NCBI GenBank assembly: GCA_022822085.1
Contig: JAJECK010000117.1
Span: 1-57,740, forward strand
DNA from: Candidatus Poribacteria bacterium
GTDB taxonomy: Bacteria > Poribacteria > WGA-4E > WGA-3G
DNA length: 57,740 bases
Direction: 5' to 3'
Below the pieces are notes generated by a model that was not told where the DNA came from, did not search any database, and saw nothing but the letters and a program-made list of their open reading frames with translations. The position numbers and the translations under genes are program-made. Shown here one piece after another: positions 6,018-15,399 of this stretch (within the stretch, counting starts at the first letter, position 1; each line of letters begins with the position of its first letter).

Positions 6018-7892
6018 CTATTTTAGAATCACGAGTCGCCGTGTTTGCTGGAAAGAGGGTGTCGTTAACTGGTAAAAATAGACACCACTTGCAACCTGTT
6101 CACCTAAAGCATTTCTACCATCCCAATACGCAGCGCGCCCACGACTATTATAATAGCCCGCGGATTGAATACCGAGCGAAAGTGTGCGAATCAACTTACC
6201 AGTTGTCCCATAAATGGATATCGATACAGGACTGTCTTGCGAGAGTTGATACGGAATCCACGTCTCCGGGTTAAACGGATTCGGATAGTTCTGCAGCAAC
6301 TGATTCTTGTTCGGTTGACCGATGCTATCAAGTTGAACAGAAAGCGAAGCATCCGTTAAATTATCGGGTGTTACCTTAAAGATGTATGTCTCTGAGGCAA
6401 CATTACCGGTTGTATCAGTAACGGTCAATTCCAAAGCGTCACCAACCTGCACAACACTCCGGCGCGTCAGGTCTGCTGTGGCAGCGGCGAAGTAGTTATC
6501 ACTGACTTGTGTTGTCATGACGGAGTTTGTCCGTAGGTTTCGGACTGTGATATGATAACCGTCATATTGCTGCGTGCTATCTAAATGTCCACTGACAACG
6601 AATGCCCAGGTCTCGCCAGGTTTCGGACTGGGTTTTGCAATCGGTGCAGCTGCACTCGCTTGCCCTGGATTTGTCCAATGGGCACCAACGACTGCAAAAT
6701 CGCGTGCTTGTGTCACATTGACGATATAGCCTTGTCCACCTTCTATAGCAAATCCATCGTTAGGCGCGCTCGGTGTCCACCCGACGAAACTTTGGTTTTC
6801 AGCATCAAGTGTTATGACAACTGTCGCACCTGCAAGACCAGCAAGGGACTTGGCGGTCATCGGTTTGGAAGAGGCTAAAGGCATAGACAACATGTTCAAA
6901 CCTTGAGTAAGATGTGTCCGGAAAATGTTGCTATACATTTCCGCTTCTTCTTTCGTGGAAGGTATAACGACACATCCGTGTCTCCGTCCATCAGGCGTAT
7001 CATAGTATCCTGTTATCCTACCTTGGCTGTCAATATCCCGTAAGACTGTTTCAACACTACCGGGGTATCGCAGTTCAAGGGGTTGTCTGCCAAGGTGGAG
7101 AACGTAAGAACGTTCAATATCGCCTTTGACTTTCGCTCGGAATACAATGTTCCATATATCATTGATCGCATTTACAAAGAGGTATTCAAGATTGGATATG
7201 TTCGGAATATCTATATCGTGAATACTACCGTCAGGGAGGCTGTAAAATCCGTGATAGATACCTTCGCTATCTATGTAACTGCCAACAACGATACCTGCAG
7301 CATTTATATCATCTGCATAAGTTGACATTGCCTTATGAACATTAAATTGCATTTTTCCAACAAAGCCTTGAATATTGCCGTTTTCATCAATGGTATCCCC
7401 GAGTAGTTGTCCATCTTCACCGATACCGAAGATTTGTGTATTAAGTGCACCAGGGAAATTCCACACTTTTAACTCACCATCTTGTAGTATAATGCCGTGT
7501 GTGATTTCGTTCTGATCTTCGTAGAAACCTGCTGCTTGTCCAGCATTATTTAGTCCGTAGAATACAGTCTGTCCGGAATCGGGGACATCATAAGTGGTAA
7601 ACACTCCATCAATAAGTGTGAATGCAATGAGTTTGCCATCTGCGTTTTTAGTATTACCTGCATAATGTCCATTGTTGTTACTTGCAGTTACTTCAAGGAA
7701 ATCAACACCCGGAACAGTTATCGTCTCATAGATGTAATGTTCTGTGTATGGATCAACGGGTGGGACAGAAATTGTCACAGGAACTGGAAGTTTGGGAGGA
7801 GGAAAATTATTAGAGTGCGCAGCGGTGTGCCACCCCAAACAAGCAATTAAAGTTATAATGAGGAGCATCTTAGTTTTAATACGGTGTTCCAT
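6018..7892 (-). CDS. Secreted HAF-repeat propeller protein with FlgD/T9SS-like C-terminus
   Basis: A 624-residue paralog of the protein at 2552-4399 with the same architecture: signal peptide (about 1-25), a proline-rich linker, HAF-type repeats (about 50-310), an NMLSMPLAS segment, an Ig-like module beginning GETWAFVVSGHL, and a C-terminal NYPNPFNPETWIPYQL domain ending in LVILK. The repeat region is clearly diverged from the paralogs, while the last 200 residues are nearly identical, which suggests recombination or gene conversion of the anchor. An AAAGGAA ribosome binding site precedes the ATG. It is probably displayed on the cell surface; the binding partner is unknown. Confidence 0.8.
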   Translation of the reverse strand: MEHRIKTKMLLIITLIACLGWHTAAHSNNFPPPKLPVPVTISVPPVDPYTEHYIYETITVPGVDFLEVTASNNNGHYAGNTKNADGKLIAFTLIDGVFTTYDVPDSGQTVFYGLNNAGQAAGFYEDQNEITHGIILQDGELKVWNFPGALNTQIFGIGEDGQLLGDTIDENGNIQGFVGKMQFNVHKAMSTYADDINAAGIVVGSYIDSEGIYHGFYSLPDGSIHDIDIPNISNLEYLFVNAINDIWNIVFRAKVKGDIERSYVLHLGRQPLELRYPGSVETVLRDIDSQGRITGYYDTPDGRRHGCVVIPSTKEEAEMYSNIFRTHLTQGLNMLSMPLASSKPMTAKSLAGLAGATVVITLDAENQSFVGWTPSAPNDGFAIEGGQGYIVNVTQARDFAVVGAHWTNPGQASAAAPIAKPSPKPGETWAFVVSGHLDSTQQYDGYHITVRNLRTNSVMTTQVSDNYFAAATADLTRRSVVQVGDALELTVTDTTGNVASETYIFKVTPDNLTDASLSVQLDSIGQPNKNQLLQNYPNPFNPETWIPYQLSQDSPVSISIYGTTGKLIRTLSLGIQSAGYYNSRGRAAYWDGRNALGEQVASGVYFYQLTTPSFQQTRRLVILK

Positions 7893-8002
7893 ATATCTAT
7901 TCCTTTTTAAGTTGCAGGTTAGATTGAGGGACGAAACCCATAAGTGCCAATTTATGGGTCCAAATCCGTTATGGCAGCGTCTTCAGTCCCAGTGAATGCC
8001 TT

Positions 8003-8098
8003 ATGAAGATTAATTTATTAATTCGGTCCTTTTTTATCTGTACGAGGCAGGTGTCCTCGCCAGAAGGAAAAGAACCCAATTAATAAGTTAATCTTCAT
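8003..8098. repeat. Element bounded by ATGAAGATTAA inverted repeats
   Basis: The ends tgaagattaatttattaatt (from 8004) and aattaataagttaatcttca (to 8097) are near-perfect reverse complements around a short core that contains a remnant of the palindrome family (gaggcaggtgtcctcgcc). Related elements with the same ends lie at 12239-12354 and 28688-28801, and half-copies near 8607-8633 and 53579-53608. It is a MITE-like structure without coding capacity; no clean target duplication is seen for this copy. Confidence 0.65.
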
Positions 8099-8166
8099 CC
8101 AGATTGCGGTATTTGACCCACAAACTCAAAGTTGAGGCTACAGACACACAAGGTTCCCCTCCTCCT

Positions 8167-8358
8167 GCTGGCGAGGTTTCCGAACCTCGTCTATCTGCTG
8201 CTGGCGAGGTTTCCGAACCTCATCTATCTGCTGCTGGCGAGGTTTTCGAACCTCGTCTATCTGCTGCTGGCGAGGTTTTCGAACCTCGTCTATCTGCTGC
8301 TGGCGAGGTTTCCGAACCTCGCCTATCTGCTGCTGGCAAGGTTTTCGAACCTCGCCAA
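8167..8358. repeat. Tandem array of six 33-bp palindromic units
   Basis: Six consecutive units of 33 bases each carry the GGCGAGGTT / AACCTCG palindrome plus a short ctatctgct connector, with only single-base differences between units. Because 33 is divisible by three, the array stays open in several frames, creating false ORFs full of LLARFPNL repeats. It is not a CRISPR array: the connectors are identical, not unique spacers. It occupies the gap between two HAF-propeller genes. Confidence 0.9.
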
Positions 8359-8431
8359 TTATTGAACCCCGTTTTAACAGGATAACAATTTAAAAAAAGT
8401 CAAGCAGAATAGAGTGCGTTGCCCTTGGGTA

Positions 8432-8633
8432 AAGGCGAGGTTCGGAAACCTCGTCAGCGGAGGAGGGAAACCTATCCTGCCTGCTGGCAAGGTTAGAAAA
8501 CCTCGTCAGCGGAGGAAGGAAACCTGCCCTGCCTGCTGGCAAGGTTAGAAAACCTCGTCAGCGGAGGAGGGAAACCTGCCTGCTGGCGAGGTTTCCGAAC
8601 CTCGCCAAATTACCGAAACATTTTCTTAATCTT
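8432..8633. repeat. Second palindrome cluster with about 58-bp units
   Basis: Three imperfect units of palindrome plus cagcggaggagggaaacctg connector, in the opposite orientation to the neighbouring 33-bp array, end in a standard palindrome at 8584-8607 and a ttaccgaaacattttcttaatcttcat tail (to 8633) shared with other dispersed copies (about 5833-5862, 28771-28801, 53579-53608). Together with the 33-bp array and the element at 8003-8098, this explains nearly all of the 7893-8751 gap. Confidence 0.8.
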
Positions 8634-8751
8634 CATAAAGTTTGCAGTACAAAAGAGTTCAAGTAATTATTCGCAAGCTCAATCCAACGGACAAACTTTG
8701 GATTATATGTCTTCTAATCTTGGAAATCAGCAAATCCTGGTTCAAGCAACA

Positions 8752-9378
8752 CTATTTCAGAATAATCATACGTCGTGTTTGCTGGAATGATGGCGTTTCC
8801 AATCGATAGAAATAGACACCACTCGCAACCTGTTCACCTAAAGCATTTCTGCCATCCCAATACGCAGCACGTCCACGGTTATGATAGAAACCTTCGGACT
8901 GATAACCCATAGTCAGTGTCCGAACAAGTCCACCTGTCGCATCATATATTGATATAGATACAGGCGCAGCAACAGACAGCTGATACGGAATCCACGTCTC
9001 CGGATTGAACGGATTCGGATAGTTCTGCAACAACTGATCTTTGTTCGGTTGTCCGATGCTATCAAGTATGACAGGAAGCAAAGCATTCGCTAAGTTATCG
9101 GGTGTTACTTTAAAGATATATTTCTCTGAAGCAACATTACCGGTTGTATCAGTAACGGTCAATTCCAAAGCGTCACCAACCTGCACAACACTTCGTCGAG
9201 AAAGGTCTGCTGTGGCAGCGGCGAAATAGTTATCACTGACTTGTGCTGTCATGACGGTGTTTGTTCGCGTGTTTCGGACTGTGATATGATAACCGTCGTA
9301 TGTCTGTGTGCCATCTAATTTTCCACTGACAACGAATGCCCACGTTTCTTGGGTAACCCCCCTATCCCCCCTTGTCAA
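8752..9378 (-). pseudogene. C-terminal half of frameshifted HAF-propeller protein
   Basis: This frame encodes the Ig-like module (ETWAFVVSGKLDG) and the C-terminal NYPNPFNPETWIPYQL anchor domain, ending in MIILK, of the protein whose N-terminal part is at 9375-11456. The two frames overlap by four bases (TTGA) and lie one base out of register. The only start here is a TTG at the overlap, so it would need reinitiation, slippage or a repaired frame to be made. Without a signal peptide it cannot be exported alone. Rejoined, the protein would be about 900 residues, matching the paralog at 12716-15399. Confidence 0.75.
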
Positions 9379-11456
9379 GGGGGTATAATAGCAGAGGGTG
9401 CGGCAGCAGCTGCTTCAGTTGGATTTGTCCAACGTGCGCCAACGAATGCGAAATCGCGCGCTTGTGTCACATTGACGATATAGCCTTGTCCACCTTCTAT
9501 AGCAAATCCATCGTTAGGCGAGCTCGGTGTCCATCCGACAAAACTTTGATTATCCGCATCAAGGGCAATAACAACCGTTGCACCTGTCAACCCCGCAAAT
9601 GATTTTGCGTTCATCGGTGTACGGGAAGCTAAAGGCAAAGACAGCATGTTCAAACCTTTTGTCAACTTTACATTGTAGTGGTTGCCAAAAAAATCACTCA
9701 CTGCCTCGGTAGTAGGTTTAGCGATAAAACCGTGCACGCGACCATCTGCTGATTTATAGTTGCCGACAACGGAACCGTCCTGGTTAATATTCCACCCCTC
9801 CGTGCTAACACTACCCGGATACTCCAATGTCTGTAAACCGTGCTGGAGTGAACCCACTGAGGTACGCACGACACCACCAACCCTCTTGGACCTACCAACG
9901 AGAGTTCCTACATCATTGATACCGTGAATGAAAAAGAATTCAAAGGATGCTGCATGTGGAAGGTCAAGAGATATAAATCTGCCCTCTGGAGTTCCTACAT
10001 AAGGATGATATATACCATCAGCATCCACATAACTACCCACCAGACGACCACTCGCGTTTACAAAATCGGCATAAGTTGCAGAAGCATCGGGGGCTTCAAC
10101 TATAGTGGCACCAGTGAATCCACGGCGAACACCAGAAGCATCTATGAAATTACCCGTCAGTGCGCCTGTAGCATCACTGATACCGTATATCTCCGTTTGC
10201 ACAGCACCGGGGAAATCGTACTGCCGCAATTCGCCATTTTCCAAAACAACACCATGGAAGTTACCATCGCTATCCATGTAGTGACCAGCAGCGTTCCCAT
10301 TATTACCGAGGGCATAGAAATGCGTTTTCTGTGAGTCGGGGAAATCATACATCTTGAATTCACCATCAATCAGCGTAAAGGCAACCTCTTTCTCACCATC
10401 AGCACTTTTGGTGTAACCCGCGTAATCCTCAAAATCACTACTCGCTGTCACAGATAAAAAATCCACACCCGGAACATCAATACTCTCAAAGGTAAAGTCA
10501 AAGGTAGTGGGAGTGGGAGTGGGAATGGGTTCATCTTCAACCTGTTCAGCCAGTCTAGCGATAAATCCGAGGATACGTCCATCCGTTGATTCATAGTGCC
10601 CAACGATAGAACCATCCTGATTGATATTATAACCCTCCGTGTAAACGCTGTCCGGAACACTAAATATTTTTAGTCCATCCTGAAATGTTCCGACAAGCGT
10701 GCCCGGAAGAACACCCTTCTGTTTAGCTCTGGCAACGACAACCCTCGCGTCGTTAATACCGTGCACAAAAAAGTATTCCAGATTTGCTGCACCTGGTAGG
10801 TCAAGTGACACAAACCTGCCACCCGGTGTACGGATATACGGATGGAATGTCCCTGCAGCATCTACGTAACTACCGACCATACCGCCACTGGAATTCACAA
10901 AGTCAGCATAAGTTTCCAATGCTCCGGGCACCTCAATTATTTCATCGCCTGAAAACCCACGTCGAATGCCAGAGGCATCTGTCCAATTACCCGTCAGTGC
11001 ACCGGTCGCATCACTAATACCGTATATCTCCGTTTGGACTGAACCCGGAAAATCGTATTGCTGCAATTCGCCATTTTCATCCAAGACAATACCGTGTGTT
11101 AAACCGTCGATGTCCTCGTAGTGTCCGGCAGCTTGTCCACTGTTACCGAGCGCAAAGAAATAGGTATTTTGCGAACCCGGGTAATCATAAGTTGTAAAAA
11201 CACCATCAATGAGTGTGAAGGCAACATTTTTTTCACCATCAGCACTTTTCGTGTAACCTGCGTAATCCTCAAAGTCGCTACTCGCTGTCAACGCTAAAAA
11301 ATCTACTCCCGGAACATCAATTGTCTTAAAAGTATAATTGTCACTGGCAGACGCAGTGTTAACTTGTGCAACAGTGCTCAATACGAATATTGGACTGAGG
11401 CACATAAACAATATAAGCACGTAAAAGAAATAACAGGTTTTAATCTTTGTAAACAT
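9375..11456 (-). CDS. N-terminal part of frameshifted double-module HAF-propeller protein
   Basis: 693 residues: signal peptide (about 1-31), then two consecutive copies of the HAF-repeat propeller module. The first begins NYTFKTIDVPGVDFLAL and the second FTFESIDVPGVDFLSV near residue 325; a PTPTPT linker joins them. An NMLSLPLAS segment follows, and the frame ends in AAAAAPSAIIPP just where paralogs continue into the Ig-like module. The stop lies inside a C/G-rich stretch resembling the end of the local MITE family, and the missing C-terminus is in the adjacent frame (8752-9378). As written, the product would be exported but lack its anchor. It has a good AGGGGAG site before the ATG. Confidence 0.75.
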   Translation of the reverse strand: MFTKIKTCYFFYVLILFMCLSPIFVLSTVAQVNTASASDNYTFKTIDVPGVDFLALTASSDFEDYAGYTKSADGEKNVAFTLIDGVFTTYDYPGSQNTYFFALGNSGQAAGHYEDIDGLTHGIVLDENGELQQYDFPGSVQTEIYGISDATGALTGNWTDASGIRRGFSGDEIIEVPGALETYADFVNSSGGMVGSYVDAAGTFHPYIRTPGGRFVSLDLPGAANLEYFFVHGINDARVVVARAKQKGVLPGTLVGTFQDGLKIFSVPDSVYTEGYNINQDGSIVGHYESTDGRILGFIARLAEQVEDEPIPTPTPTTFDFTFESIDVPGVDFLSVTASSDFEDYAGYTKSADGEKEVAFTLIDGEFKMYDFPDSQKTHFYALGNNGNAAGHYMDSDGNFHGVVLENGELRQYDFPGAVQTEIYGISDATGALTGNFIDASGVRRGFTGATIVEAPDASATYADFVNASGRLVGSYVDADGIYHPYVGTPEGRFISLDLPHAASFEFFFIHGINDVGTLVGRSKRVGGVVRTSVGSLQHGLQTLEYPGSVSTEGWNINQDGSVVGNYKSADGRVHGFIAKPTTEAVSDFFGNHYNVKLTKGLNMLSLPLASRTPMNAKSFAGLTGATVVIALDADNQSFVGWTPSSPNDGFAIEGGQGYIVNVTQARDFAFVGARWTNPTEAAAAAPSAIIPP

Positions 11457-11912
11457 AACAAACTCCCCTTAATAGTTTCTATAAATCTCATTAACAATAT
11501 GTCGGATTCTTATCCTAACGAACGATGCTTGCAATTGATATTTCACGAGTTTGCATCAACAAAACGGTAAGCAAGCAAAGCGTATCTTAATTATTCTTCT
11601 ATATTAAAAGTATCCAATATTTTCAAGAAAAAGGCAAGTTAAATCGTTTGTAATCTTGAATATACAGATCGGACATCTAACTCAAAGTATAAGCGGATGG
11701 TTGCTTTCAGATAGGAAGGATTTACACGTTCTTTAAAAAAACGCAATTAGTAGTTTTGGGTTTATATATCTATATGTGAATTTACACATACGAACATGTG
11801 TGGCTGTCGTCATTTCTTTCATTTTTACAACTTTAATTTGACATATACAATTTTCAATGGTATAATAATACCACTGTCCTTGATTTGCCTTATTCCCTAA
11901 GGACATAAAACA

Positions 11913-12012
11913 CCGCCAAACGCTTATGGAGGTGGCGGGAATCGAACCCGCGAATATCGGCTGACAACACCATATCCAACTCCTGTTCACCCCCATATTT
12001 AGTGTTTGGCGG
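11913..12012 (-). ncRNA. tRNA-like structured small RNA (no canonical anticodon arm)
   Basis: Read on the minus strand, the core 11994-11927 has a 7-bp acceptor-like stem (GGGGGTG with CACCTCC, one G-U pair), a perfect T-arm (GCGGG-TTCGATT-CCCGC, 11951-11935) and an A discriminator, but only 36 bases between acceptor and T-stem, too few for normal D and anticodon arms. A TTGG-containing D-loop-like segment and a bulged hairpin (ATATGG / CCGATAT) fill this space, as in a tmRNA tRNA-like domain without its mRNA part. An outer 9-bp stem (CCGCCAAAC 12012-12004 with GTTTGGCGG 11921-11913) encloses the core, followed by TGTTTTAT. CCA is not encoded. Function is unknown; a degenerate tRNA is the main alternative. 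Confidence 0.6.
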
Positions 12013-12019
12013 TTCTCAA

Positions 12020-12048
12020 ATTATACTCTCAAACCCACCAAATTACAA
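12020..12048 (-). promoter_or_regulatory. Sigma70-like promoter for the tRNA-like RNA
   Basis: On the minus strand TTGTAA (12048-12043) and TATAAT (12025-12020) are separated by exactly 17 bases. The expected transcription start, about 7 bases downstream, falls at or next to 12012, the first base of the outer stem of the tRNA-like RNA. This placement supports an independent RNA gene rather than a chance tRNA fragment. Confidence 0.6.
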
Positions 12049-12150
12049 ATAAAACACCAAATACAAGAGAAACAGCAATTGATAACTGGTTGACTGCCCT
12101 TTTTCTTGACATTCTCCCTTTATAATTGTAATGTGAGTTTGATAATAAGG

Positions 12151-12354
12151 CAGGATGGATGCATTCCTCTTAAAGTCTTCCTTGATAAGGGGGTTAAACA
12201 CTGAAATAGCGACTTTTAACCCCCCTAACCCCCCTTATATGAAGATTAAGAAAATAAATCGGTAATTTGGCGAGGTTAGGAAACCTCGCCAGCGGCGGAG
12301 GGACACCTGCCTCGTCCGAATAAAAAATTACCGAATTAATAAATTAATCTTCAT
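12151..12354. mobile_element. Truncated MITE joined to an ATGAAGATTAA element
   Basis: 12151-12236 resembles the MITE of 4507-4638: left end caggatggatgcatt, then ctcttaaagt, ccttgataaggggg and a final run of C-rich sequence, but the right end is missing. It abuts directly an element bounded by atgaagattaag (12239) and ttaatcttcat (12354) that contains a GGCGAGGTT palindrome at 12268-12291. The arrangement suggests insertion of one element into, or recombination with, the other. A further half-copy (gccagcggaggagggaaacc to ttaatcttcat) follows to about 12439. Confidence 0.7.
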
Positions 12355-12585
12355 TAGGCATTCCCCGCGTCGCCAGCGGAGGAGGGAAACCTGCTTCGGA
12401 CGGATAAAAGATTACCGCTTTATTTTCTTAATCTTCATTTAGTTTGTGCATCAAAAACGCAAACTAAAAGTTTGCGGTACAAAAGAGTTCTGCGATTTTA
12501 TCAATCCGATAATCCCGGTTCAGACACCCCCACCGCGGCGAAAGCGCGCCTGCAAGGAGACAAAATGTCTTAAATTGACACATAA

Positions 12586-12694
12586 GGGTAGAGCGAAGCG
12601 AAACCCGCAGAATGCCAAACGCGCATTCTGCGTTGATTTGGACATGATAGACGTAATCATCACGTGTCGGGTTTCGTTCCTCTACCCGACCTAC
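12586..12694. repeat. Long hairpin repeat, third copy
   Basis: Same family as 238-309 and 2420-2507: gggtagagcgaagcgaaaccc at the left and gggtttcgttcctctaccc at the right, with the gacatgatagacgtaatcatcacgtg core shared with the first copy. It lies just past the stop of the downstream HAF-propeller frame (12716). A plus-strand open frame at 12446-12733 is formed by this repeat and is not believed. Confidence 0.75.
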
Positions 12695-12715
12695 TTATTT
12701 AGTCTGGACTATCCA

Positions 12716-14410
12716 CTATTTTACAATAATTAGGCGTCGCGTTTGTTGAAAAGAAGGTGTTATCAACTGGTAGAAATAAATACCACTTGCCACGCTTTCT
12801 CCTAAAGTATTTCTGCCATCCCAATAAGCAGCACGGCCACGATTATGATAGAACCCTTCCGGTTGATAGCCGATCGTCAGTGTCCGGACAAGTCCACCTG
12901 TCGCATCATAAATTGATATGGATACAGGGGCAGCAACCGATAGTTGATATGGAATCCAGGTTTCTGGGTTAAACGGATTCGGGTAATTCTGCAACAACTG
13001 ATCTTTGTTCGGTTGACCGATGCTCTCAAGATTGACAGGAAGCACTGCATTTAATAGATTTTCGGGTGTTACCTGAAAACTAAACTTTTCTGAAGCAACA
13101 TTTCCATTAGTATCAGTGACTGTCACTTCAAGTGTATCACCAACTTGCACAACACTTCTCCGAGTTAGATCTGCTGTGGCAGCAGCGAAGTAGTTATCGT
13201 TGACTTGTGCTGTCATGATGGTGTTTGTCCGAGTGTTTCGGACAGTGATGTGATAACCGTCGTATATCTGTGTGCCATCTAATGTACCACTGACAACAAA
13301 TGCCCAAGTTTCGCGTGTTGTTGCCCAAGTTTCGCCTGTTGTTGAATCTGGAGTTGCAGTCGGTGCTGCACTCGTGTGTCCTTCATTTGTCCAACGTGCT
13401 CCGACGAATGCAAAGTCGCGTGCTTGGGGTACATTAACGATATAACCCTGACCACCTTCAATTGGGAATCCGTCATGAGGGGAACTTGGGGTCCACCCGA
13501 TGAAACTTTGATTTTCAGCATCAAGCGCTATAACAACAGTCGCACCCGTTATGCCGGCAAGTGATTTGGCAGTCATCGGTTTGGGTGATGCTAAAGGCAC
13601 AGAAAGCATGTTCAACCCTTTGGATAGCGTGACGGTGTAGACGTTGCCGAAATGGTCGCTTTCTGTCTCGGTCGTGAGTCTGGCGATAAATCCGTGCCTA
13701 CGTCCATCAGGTGAGTCGTAGTGTCCTACAACGGAGCCATCCTGATTGATATTCCAACCCTCAGTGCTAACGGCACCCGGAACCCGCAATTCTTGTAGGT
13801 TGAGGGGGCTGCCGACATAAGTGCGCGGGACATCACCCCCCGCTTTCGCTCTGCCAACGACAGTCCTTGTCCTGTTGAGGCCGTGGAGAAAAAAGTATTC
13901 CAGATTTAGTGCGTCTGGAAGATCGATAGATAGAAATCTGCCCACCGAACTACGCATATATGCATGATATATGCCGTCAGCGTCCACGTAGCTGCCCACG
14001 ATATGACCTGTCCAGCTCACAAAATCGGCGTAAGTTTCCGGTGCCTCTGGATACTCGACTATTGTGTCCCCTGAGAACCCACGGCGAATGCCGGAAGCAT
14101 CTATAAAATTACCTGTCAGGGCACCCGTCGCGTCACTATACCCGTATATCTCCGTTTCGACGGCACCCGGGAAATCGTATTGTCGCAATTCACCATTTTC
14201 TAAGATGACACCGTGGTAAAGTCCGTTGCTATCCTGATAGTGGCCGGCGGCTACCCCATTATTACCGAGCGCATAGAAATAAGTGCCTTGTGCCCCAGGG
14301 AAATCATGTGTGGTAAAAACGCCATCTATGAGCGTAAAGGCTACATCTTTTTCACCATCAGGACCCCGCATGTTGCCGGCGTAATCCTCAAAGTCGCTAC
14401 TCGCCGTCAC
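12716..14410 (-). pseudogene. C-terminal part of second frameshifted HAF-propeller protein
   Basis: Encodes the second HAF module, the NMLSVPLAS segment, the Ig-like module (with a duplicated GETWATTRETWAF junction) and the NYPNPFNPETWIPYQL anchor domain ending in LIIVK. The matching reading frame continues upstream through LNYTFESIDVPGVDFLAV to about 14500 without a start codon, so the GTG at 14410 is only the first possible initiator, inside a conserved repeat. The first half of the protein is the frame at 14422-15399. A single-base change in the linker between the two modules would restore a protein of about 894 residues. Confidence 0.75.
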
Positions 14411-14421
14411 CGCTAAAAAAT

Positions 14422-15399
14422 CTACACCCGGAACATCAATACTCTCAAACGTATAGTTAAGGTCAGGAGGTGTCGCACAGCAGTCGGCTGTAAGGGTCTT
14501 GCGATAAATCCGTGTGTACGTCCATCGGCTGAAGTATAGTGTCCGACGACAGAACTATCCTGATTGATATTCCAGCCTTCTGTGCTAACGGCACCCGGAA
14601 CCTGAAATTCTTGTAAGGCGACGGGATTGCCGACAAAGGTGATCGGGACACCATCCACCGCTTTCGCTCTGCCAACGGCGACCAGTGCATCGTTGATACC
14701 GTGCAGAAAAAAGTATTCCTGATTTGGTATTTCTGGAATATCCAGAGTTGCGAAACTACCTCCAGGTCCACGCAGGTATGCATGATATATGCCTTTAGCA
14801 TTTACGTAGCTACCCACGACATTTCCTAAGCTGCTCACAAAATCGGCATAAGTTTCCGATGCCCCAGGGAACTCAATGATTGTCTCTCCTGAGAATCCGC
14901 GACGAACGCCGGACGCATCTGTCCAATTACCCGTCAGTACCCCGGTTGAATCACTATATCCATAGATCTCCGTTTCTATGGCACCTGGGAAATCGTATTG
15001 TCGCAGCTCGCCATTTTCTAAGATGACACCGTGGAAAAGCCCGTCGCTATCCTCGTAGTGCCCCGCAGCAAGTCCATTATTACCGAGTGCGTAGAAATAA
15101 GTGTTTTTGGCGTCGGGGAAATCGTATGTCTCAAAAACACCGTCAATGAGCGTAAAGGCGACCATTTTTTCACCATCGGCACTCGGGGTGTTGCCGGCGT
15201 AATCCTCAAAGTCGCTACTTGCCGTCACCGCTAAGAAATCTACACCCGGAACGTCGATCGTCTCAAAGGTATAGTTGGCAGATATGCCAACGGGTTCATC
15301 GCTGGCTTGTGCAGCGGTGTTGGTTATGAAAAAGGAAGTGAGGCATAAAAACAACGTAAATATGTAAAACAAAAAACTGGTTTTAATCTGATTTTGCAT
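14422..15399 (-). CDS. N-terminal part of second frameshifted HAF-propeller protein
   Basis: 325 residues: signal peptide (about 1-31) and one complete HAF-repeat propeller module (NYTFETIDVPGVDFLAV to HGFIARPLQPTA). The frame then runs out of register and ends after 19 unrelated residues, whereas the adjacent frame resumes the second module (NYTFESIDVPGVDF). Compared with the paralog at 9375-11456, the break is in the inter-module linker. Upstream, a block near 15440-15530 is similar to the sequence upstream of the paralog, suggesting shared promoter or leader. Whether the single-module product is functional cannot be judged. Confidence 0.75.
   Translation of the reverse strand: MQNQIKTSFLFYIFTLFLCLTSFFITNTAAQASDEPVGISANYTFETIDVPGVDFLAVTASSDFEDYAGNTPSADGEKMVAFTLIDGVFETYDFPDAKNTYFYALGNNGLAAGHYEDSDGLFHGVILENGELRQYDFPGAIETEIYGYSDSTGVLTGNWTDASGVRRGFSGETIIEFPGASETYADFVSSLGNVVGSYVNAKGIYHAYLRGPGGSFATLDIPEIPNQEYFFLHGINDALVAVGRAKAVDGVPITFVGNPVALQEFQVPGAVSTEGWNINQDSSVVGHYTSADGRTHGFIARPLQPTAVRHLLTLTIRLRVLMFRV

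Follow-up and report, generated by a model that had tools for sequence, protein, structure and literature searches.

The minus strand of the window (the whole stretch of DNA analysed, 57,740 nucleotides from a Candidatus Poribacteria bacterium) carries at 11906-12048 a promoter, an outer stem, an acceptor stem, a T-arm and the discriminator A73. This element belongs to a family of tRNA-like RNAs with covarying stems, in which G3:U70 and A73 are conserved, whose copies lie at unrelated loci and vary in presence or absence at one locus. Judged from sequence, the family looks like a set of alanine-accepting, atypical tRNAs. The original prediction of a tRNA-like non-coding RNA that has a promoter of its own and lies between preserved flanks was supported, as the element is a copy of a multi-copy family with a conserved promoter and not a lone relic.

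Anatomy of the window element

The predicted promoter is present, with TTGTAA at 12048-12043 and TATAAT at 12025-12020 separated by a 17-nt spacer, and agrees with the consensus at 10 of 12 positions (Table 1). Transcription had been proposed to start at the first base of the outer stem; as only 4 nt separate TATAAT from the stem, the usual start would fall within the first few nucleotides of the stem. Most family copies have the same -35 box, spacer and -10 box, the latter approximately 4 nt ahead of the outer stem. The enclosing stem itself was confirmed and is slightly longer than the 9 bp first described, with 10 contiguous pairs followed by an A.C mismatch and further pairs. The 7-bp acceptor stem, the perfect T-arm and the A discriminator were all found on the minus strand as described, and the acceptor stem is lengthened by TAT/ATA pairs outside G1.

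The gap between the acceptor stem and the T-arm is exactly 36 nt, as stated, but is not empty, since alignment with relatives shows a D-like hairpin and an anticodon-like arm within it. The small arms of the window copy are read from this alignment, tentatively in the case of the D-like hairpin, for which the aligned stems are AAC/GTT in the relative G014C58 and AGC/GCT in G014C315. Energy minimisation of the bare 68-mer core favours another long, non-cloverleaf hairpin by approximately 6 kcal/mol. For the 116-nt region the folding energy is -52 kcal/mol (z = -6.5), a value that none of 200 shuffled sequences reached. A simple terminator scan missed the T-run of the window element, the loop of which exceeds the size limit of that rule.

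Table 1 Features of the window element (positions in the window)
Feature	Position	Strand	Basis
Promoter TTGTAA-17-TATAAT, conserved spacer motif GGTGGG	12020-12048	minus	no chance match expected in the window
Outer stem, 5′ arm GAACCGCCAAACACT	12001-12015	minus	double changes at 11 of 15 outer-stem pairs (16 members)
Acceptor 5′ strand GGGGGTG, including G3 of G3:U70	11988-11994	minus	tRNA comparison and family alignment
Shrunken D-like hairpin AAC-AGGA-GTT (putative)	11978-11987	minus	alignment reading, weak; absent from the minimum-energy fold
Anticodon-like arm TGGT-GUUGUCA-GCCG	11958-11972	minus	stem covaries in 16 members; paralog has the same loop
T-arm GCGGGTTCGATTCCCGC (GCGGG-TTCGATT-CCCGC)	11935-11951	minus	sequence, covariation and family alignment
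Acceptor 3′ strand CACCTCC, including U70	11928-11934	minus	tRNA comparison and family alignment
Discriminator A73, no encoded CCA	11927	minus	same as most tRNAs of the genome
Outer stem, 3′ arm GCGTTTGGCGGT	11912-11923	minus	fold and covariation
TTTT, terminator-like end past the outer stem	11907-11910	minus	T-run after the stem in most copies

Two features of the opposite strand were also observed. A plus-strand promoter at 11838-11866 of the window matches the sigma-70 consensus at 12 of 12 positions (TTGACA-17-TATAAT, extended -10), lies just past the element and is aimed through it, making an antisense transcript across the element possible. The outer stem is sufficiently symmetric for covariance model R1 to match the plus strand as well (31.8 bits).

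Members and distribution of the family

Covariance models were built first from six copies and then from 16 (R2), and matches of 48.6 bits or more with R2 were taken as secure members; the E-values of the models are rough. The R2 search identified 21 secure members in 6 of the 85 genomes of the phylum, counts that depend on incomplete assemblies. These genomes comprise five of the 18 of the window's genus (G000, the genome of the window, with 2 members; G014 with 3; G007 with 5; G013 with 1; G015 with 9) and one of a sister genus (G028, 1 member). A more divergent candidate beyond the 21 is present in G004. Those matches below approximately 47 bits across the phylum that were inspected were ordinary tRNAs, among them one of 46.9 bits in G061 overlapping tRNA-Ala(cgc). 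A pattern combining the start of the outer stem, the acceptor and the T-arm gave three true matches over 85k species and IMG/VR, all of them in Poribacteria, and a viral or wider bacterial origin was rejected. No published description of this tRNA-like family was found in the literature searched, which was covered in part.

The paralog in the window's own genome (5.6-Mb assembly), at C20:14690-14807, has the promoter and outer stem in common with the window element (71% over 245 bp) around a core that is a fuller cloverleaf, named tRNA-Thr by ARAGORN. Across the family, the D region ranges from a canonical arm down to the possible three-pair stub of the window copy. The loops at the anticodon position are heterogeneous, approximately (G/C)UUNNCA, and mostly have C37; position 37 of decoding tRNAs is a purine. 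In G015, seven units of two alternating acceptor types form a tandem array behind one promoter, with a further pair on the other strand. Directly upstream of this array (L120:7206-7646) is a CRISPR-like array with an approximately 30-nt repeat, CTTCTAATCGAACCAATTTGGAATAGAAAC, and a 66-nt period; no cas gene was recognised near it among the ORFs of the stretch examined. At L127:895-1001, on the minus strand, a canonical-looking cloverleaf combines a Gly-type anticodon, GCC, with an alanine-type acceptor (G3:U70, A73) approximately 380 bp upstream of an IS1595 transposase gene.

Covariation and conservation

Compensatory changes in the outer, acceptor and T stems of relatives, on which the original prediction staked its structure, were looked for by alignment and found. 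Double changes, in which both bases of a pair are altered, occur at 16 of 30 pairs across 16 members and in 62 cells, compared to 21.8 ± 4.5 in shuffled alignments and at most 12 in slid controls, in an alignment fitted to the covariance model, which favours structure. A six-sequence MAFFT alignment gave the same picture, with double changes at 8 pairs in 10 cells (shuffled mean 3.7 cells). The anticodon-like stem, which lies outside the model, also covaries in the 16 members (22 double-change cells; shuffled mean 8.0). These substitution patterns indicate that the family structure is under constraint.

In the orthologous pair G007C152/G014C185, the tRNA-like part is identical at 73 of 73 positions and the promoter at 42 of 45, and the outer stem contains a compensated GC to AT pair. 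The upstream flanks match at 69 of 135 positions (approximately 51%) and the downstream flanks at 134 of 160, so that the downstream side is also fairly conserved. This comparison shows strong conservation for one orthologous pair, to which the window copy does not belong.

The acceptor carries the marks of alanine tRNAs

G3:U70 is present in 20 of the 21 secure members, the exception being the last unit of the array, which has A3-U70. Only two of 42 canonical tRNAs examined in the window's genome have this pair, tRNA-Ala(cgc) and tRNA-Ala(tgc); the 43rd tRNA prediction of the genome, left out of the 42, corresponds to the C20 element in a register shifted by one base. All 16 aligned members have A73 and G4-C69, and 14 have G2-C71. 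The bacterial alanine identity set comprises A73, G2-C71, G3.U70, G4-C69 and G20 (PMC9976931), and the window element has A73, G2-C71, G3:U70 and G4-C69. An encoded CCA follows 8 of the 43 tRNA predictions of the genome; as most of its tRNAs encode none, the missing CCA of the window element is unremarkable. The family shares with the genome's two tRNA-Ala the acceptor 5′ strands GGGGCAG and GGGGGTG, G3:U70 and A73, and differs from tRNA-Ala in the C37 of its anticodon-like loop, its often reduced D-arm and its outer stem.

The closest published group is that of the allo-tRNAs and irregular tRNA polycistrons, atypical bacterial cloverleaves whose diverse anticodons bear no relation to identity, which in some cases have G3:U70, and for which polycistronic arrays and a suspected link to transposons are described (PMC7609411, after Mukai et al. 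2017). In allo-tRNAs the acceptor branch comprises 12 bp arranged 8/4 or 9/3 (PMC7609411), whereas the family has the standard 7/5, and the family adds an enclosing hairpin, its own promoter and a T-run. The family could consist of missense, dual-identity tRNAs that receive alanine but decode codons of other amino acids. Such dual-identity tRNAs (PMC11415595) and allo-tRNAs with G3:U70 (PMC7609411) are known, ARAGORN reads the loops of these alanine acceptors as Ser, Thr, Val, Pro, Leu and Gly, and the G004:C41 copy pairs a canonical-looking GCC loop with G3:U70. Nearly all members, however, have C37 and an unusual loop, the D-arm is reduced in the window type, and there are mismatched stems, and we regard this explanation as distinctly improbable.

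Comparison with tmRNA and Y RNA

ARAGORN, and Rfam at its curated cut-offs, both proposed as checks with the original prediction, made no call on the window element. Under relaxed settings the window core scored 27.5 bits with the tRNA model RF00005, below the cut-off of 29, and with the tmRNA model RF00023 it scored 46.3 bits, below the cut-off of 47, which G014C58 exceeds (47.8 bits). The element had been likened to a tmRNA domain without an mRNA region, and part of this likeness held up: it shares with the tRNA-like domain of tmRNA an alanine acceptor with G3:U70, a T-arm and a reduced D region, it has the same acceptor as the genome's tmRNA and a T-arm that differs from the one there by a single base. 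The C20 paralog, by contrast, in the same kind of hairpin, scores 47.6 bits as a tRNA, passing RF00005, and 28 as a tmRNA. The common denominator of the family is therefore the alanine-type acceptor and not tmRNA.

The window element was rejected as a tmRNA itself, as it has a 68-nt core with 36 nt between the halves, without tag reading frame or pseudoknots, and ARAGORN finds an intact tmRNA at C148. A stripped-down tmRNA-like RNA could still act in ribosome rescue, or compete with tmRNA for AlaRS, EF-Tu or SmpB, as the acceptor, T-arm and tmRNA scores would suggest; given the absent tag frame and pseudoknots, the intact tmRNA and the tRNA-like paralog, we consider this very unlikely.

Bacterial Y RNA (YrlA) also combines a terminal stem with a tRNA-like part, and the long terminal stem of the family could in principle bind Ro60, leaving the tRNA mimic as the effector end. 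Among the proteins of the genome is one of Ro60 type, with TROVE and vWA domains, and TROVE is present in each of the five genus genomes that have secure members; as it also occurs in 14 of the 18 genomes of the genus overall, this co-occurrence is uninformative. YrlA has a permuted order and lies beside the Ro60 gene, whereas the family keeps the unpermuted order acceptor-D-anticodon-T and its copies are dispersed. The window element scored 12.3 bits with the YrlA model RF02553 (cut-off 69) and was rejected as a canonical Y RNA. The Ro60 gene of this genome has its own upstream YrlA-like RNA, permuted as in the YrlA model, and no family copy was found beside it. A role as Y RNA is accordingly most improbable. 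At L067:2287-4140, a Ro60-type gene (TROVE and vWA) is preceded by a YrlA-like RNA of permuted tRNA-like order that scores 31.4 bits against the cut-off of 69.

A possible pathway for the family RNA

The reading that we favour, to which we give an even chance as a whole, is that an approximately 110-nt family RNA with a hairpin-enclosed alanine-type tRNA-like part is trimmed, charged and put to use apart from ordinary decoding, as a donor of alanine or a competitor. Each copy would be transcribed from its sigma-70-type promoter, or from the one common to the array, with the start expected in the first bases of the stem because of the position of the -10 box, and transcription would end at the T-run, so that the outer hairpin would serve as leader, trailer and terminator. 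The enclosed part would then be trimmed by RNase P and 3′ processing and CCA added. The 3-bp TAT/ATA extension might impede RNase P or keep the RNA caged, in which case it could act uncut, as a decoy. Charging of the trimmed, CCA-bearing RNA by AlaRS would be expected, as this enzyme needs little beyond the acceptor G3:U70. The charged RNA would serve mainly as an alanine donor or competitor; we infer a role outside ordinary decoding from the loop sequences, which are heterogeneous with C37, and from the often reduced D-arm.

In a bolder form, which we put forward tentatively and think somewhat unlikely, these would be a dedicated class of alanine-charged non-decoding tRNAs, freed from terminator hairpins and dispersed in the form of very small mobile cassettes, that feed alanine to a non-ribosomal process or control the supply of alanyl-tRNA in Poribacteria. 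The family adds a group of structured RNAs that escape tRNA and RNA-family tools or are wrongly labelled by them, as Thr, Ser, Val or Pro tRNAs or as tmRNA. As the alanine mark is kept and the decoding parts vary, the family can be used to test directly whether bacteria retain tRNAs for non-decoding tasks.

Genomic context and movement

Copies lie at unrelated intergenic sites, with a shared neighbour only in the orthologous pair, and no linked partner gene was common to the non-orthologous loci examined. As read from ORFs without family searches, the sites include positions that follow a hem-type gene cluster, that are flanked by ilvN- and ilvC-type genes or that adjoin a restriction-system gene. 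Non-orthologous copies are usually homologous from approximately -40 to just past the T-run, i.e. from promoter to terminator. At the one locus searched, the corresponding site in the close relatives G006 and G016 lacks the G013 copy together with some 60-70 bp to either side of it, a pattern that fits gain and loss alike. Transposase genes of the IS1595 type are found close to copies in G015 and G004. Neither target duplications nor terminal repeats could be recognised at copies.

The family could alternatively represent decaying copies of tRNA-Ala or tmRNA in small mobile cassettes, in which the acceptor and T-arm remain as the parts slowest to decay. Cores ranging from near-canonical to short, broken pairs in G007C276 and G014C315, an orphan promoter copy without RNA upstream of G007C276 and the presence/absence polymorphism are consistent with this. 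The covariation of the stems, including the outer and anticodon-like stems, argues against it, as do the maintained promoter spacing, the core identity of 73/73 in one orthologous pair and position 3:70, which is never G-C. We consider decay unlikely; a degenerate tRNA, as first suggested, is possible for the single window copy but does not explain the family. Under the favoured reading of a charged, non-decoding RNA, the genes would spread or be lost as small cassettes, and the distribution of copies suggests cassette-wise gain or loss of very short tRNA-like genes.

The sequence CAAAACTACTNATTGCGT was considered as a transposon end. It occurs at 11741-11758 of the window (minus strand) and at L128, L121, L123, L130, L131 and L129, 70-490 bp from many copies, and is found seven times in the genome compared to none in a reversed control. 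Its distance to copies is variable, it has no consistent partner end and it also occurs without a copy, and it was therefore set aside as a separate dispersed repeat. In the window, both sides of the element are occupied by tandem paralogous secreted-type proteins (6018-15399, minus strand) with repeated IDVPGVDF modules and C-terminal FNPETWIPYQLS sorting-like domains.
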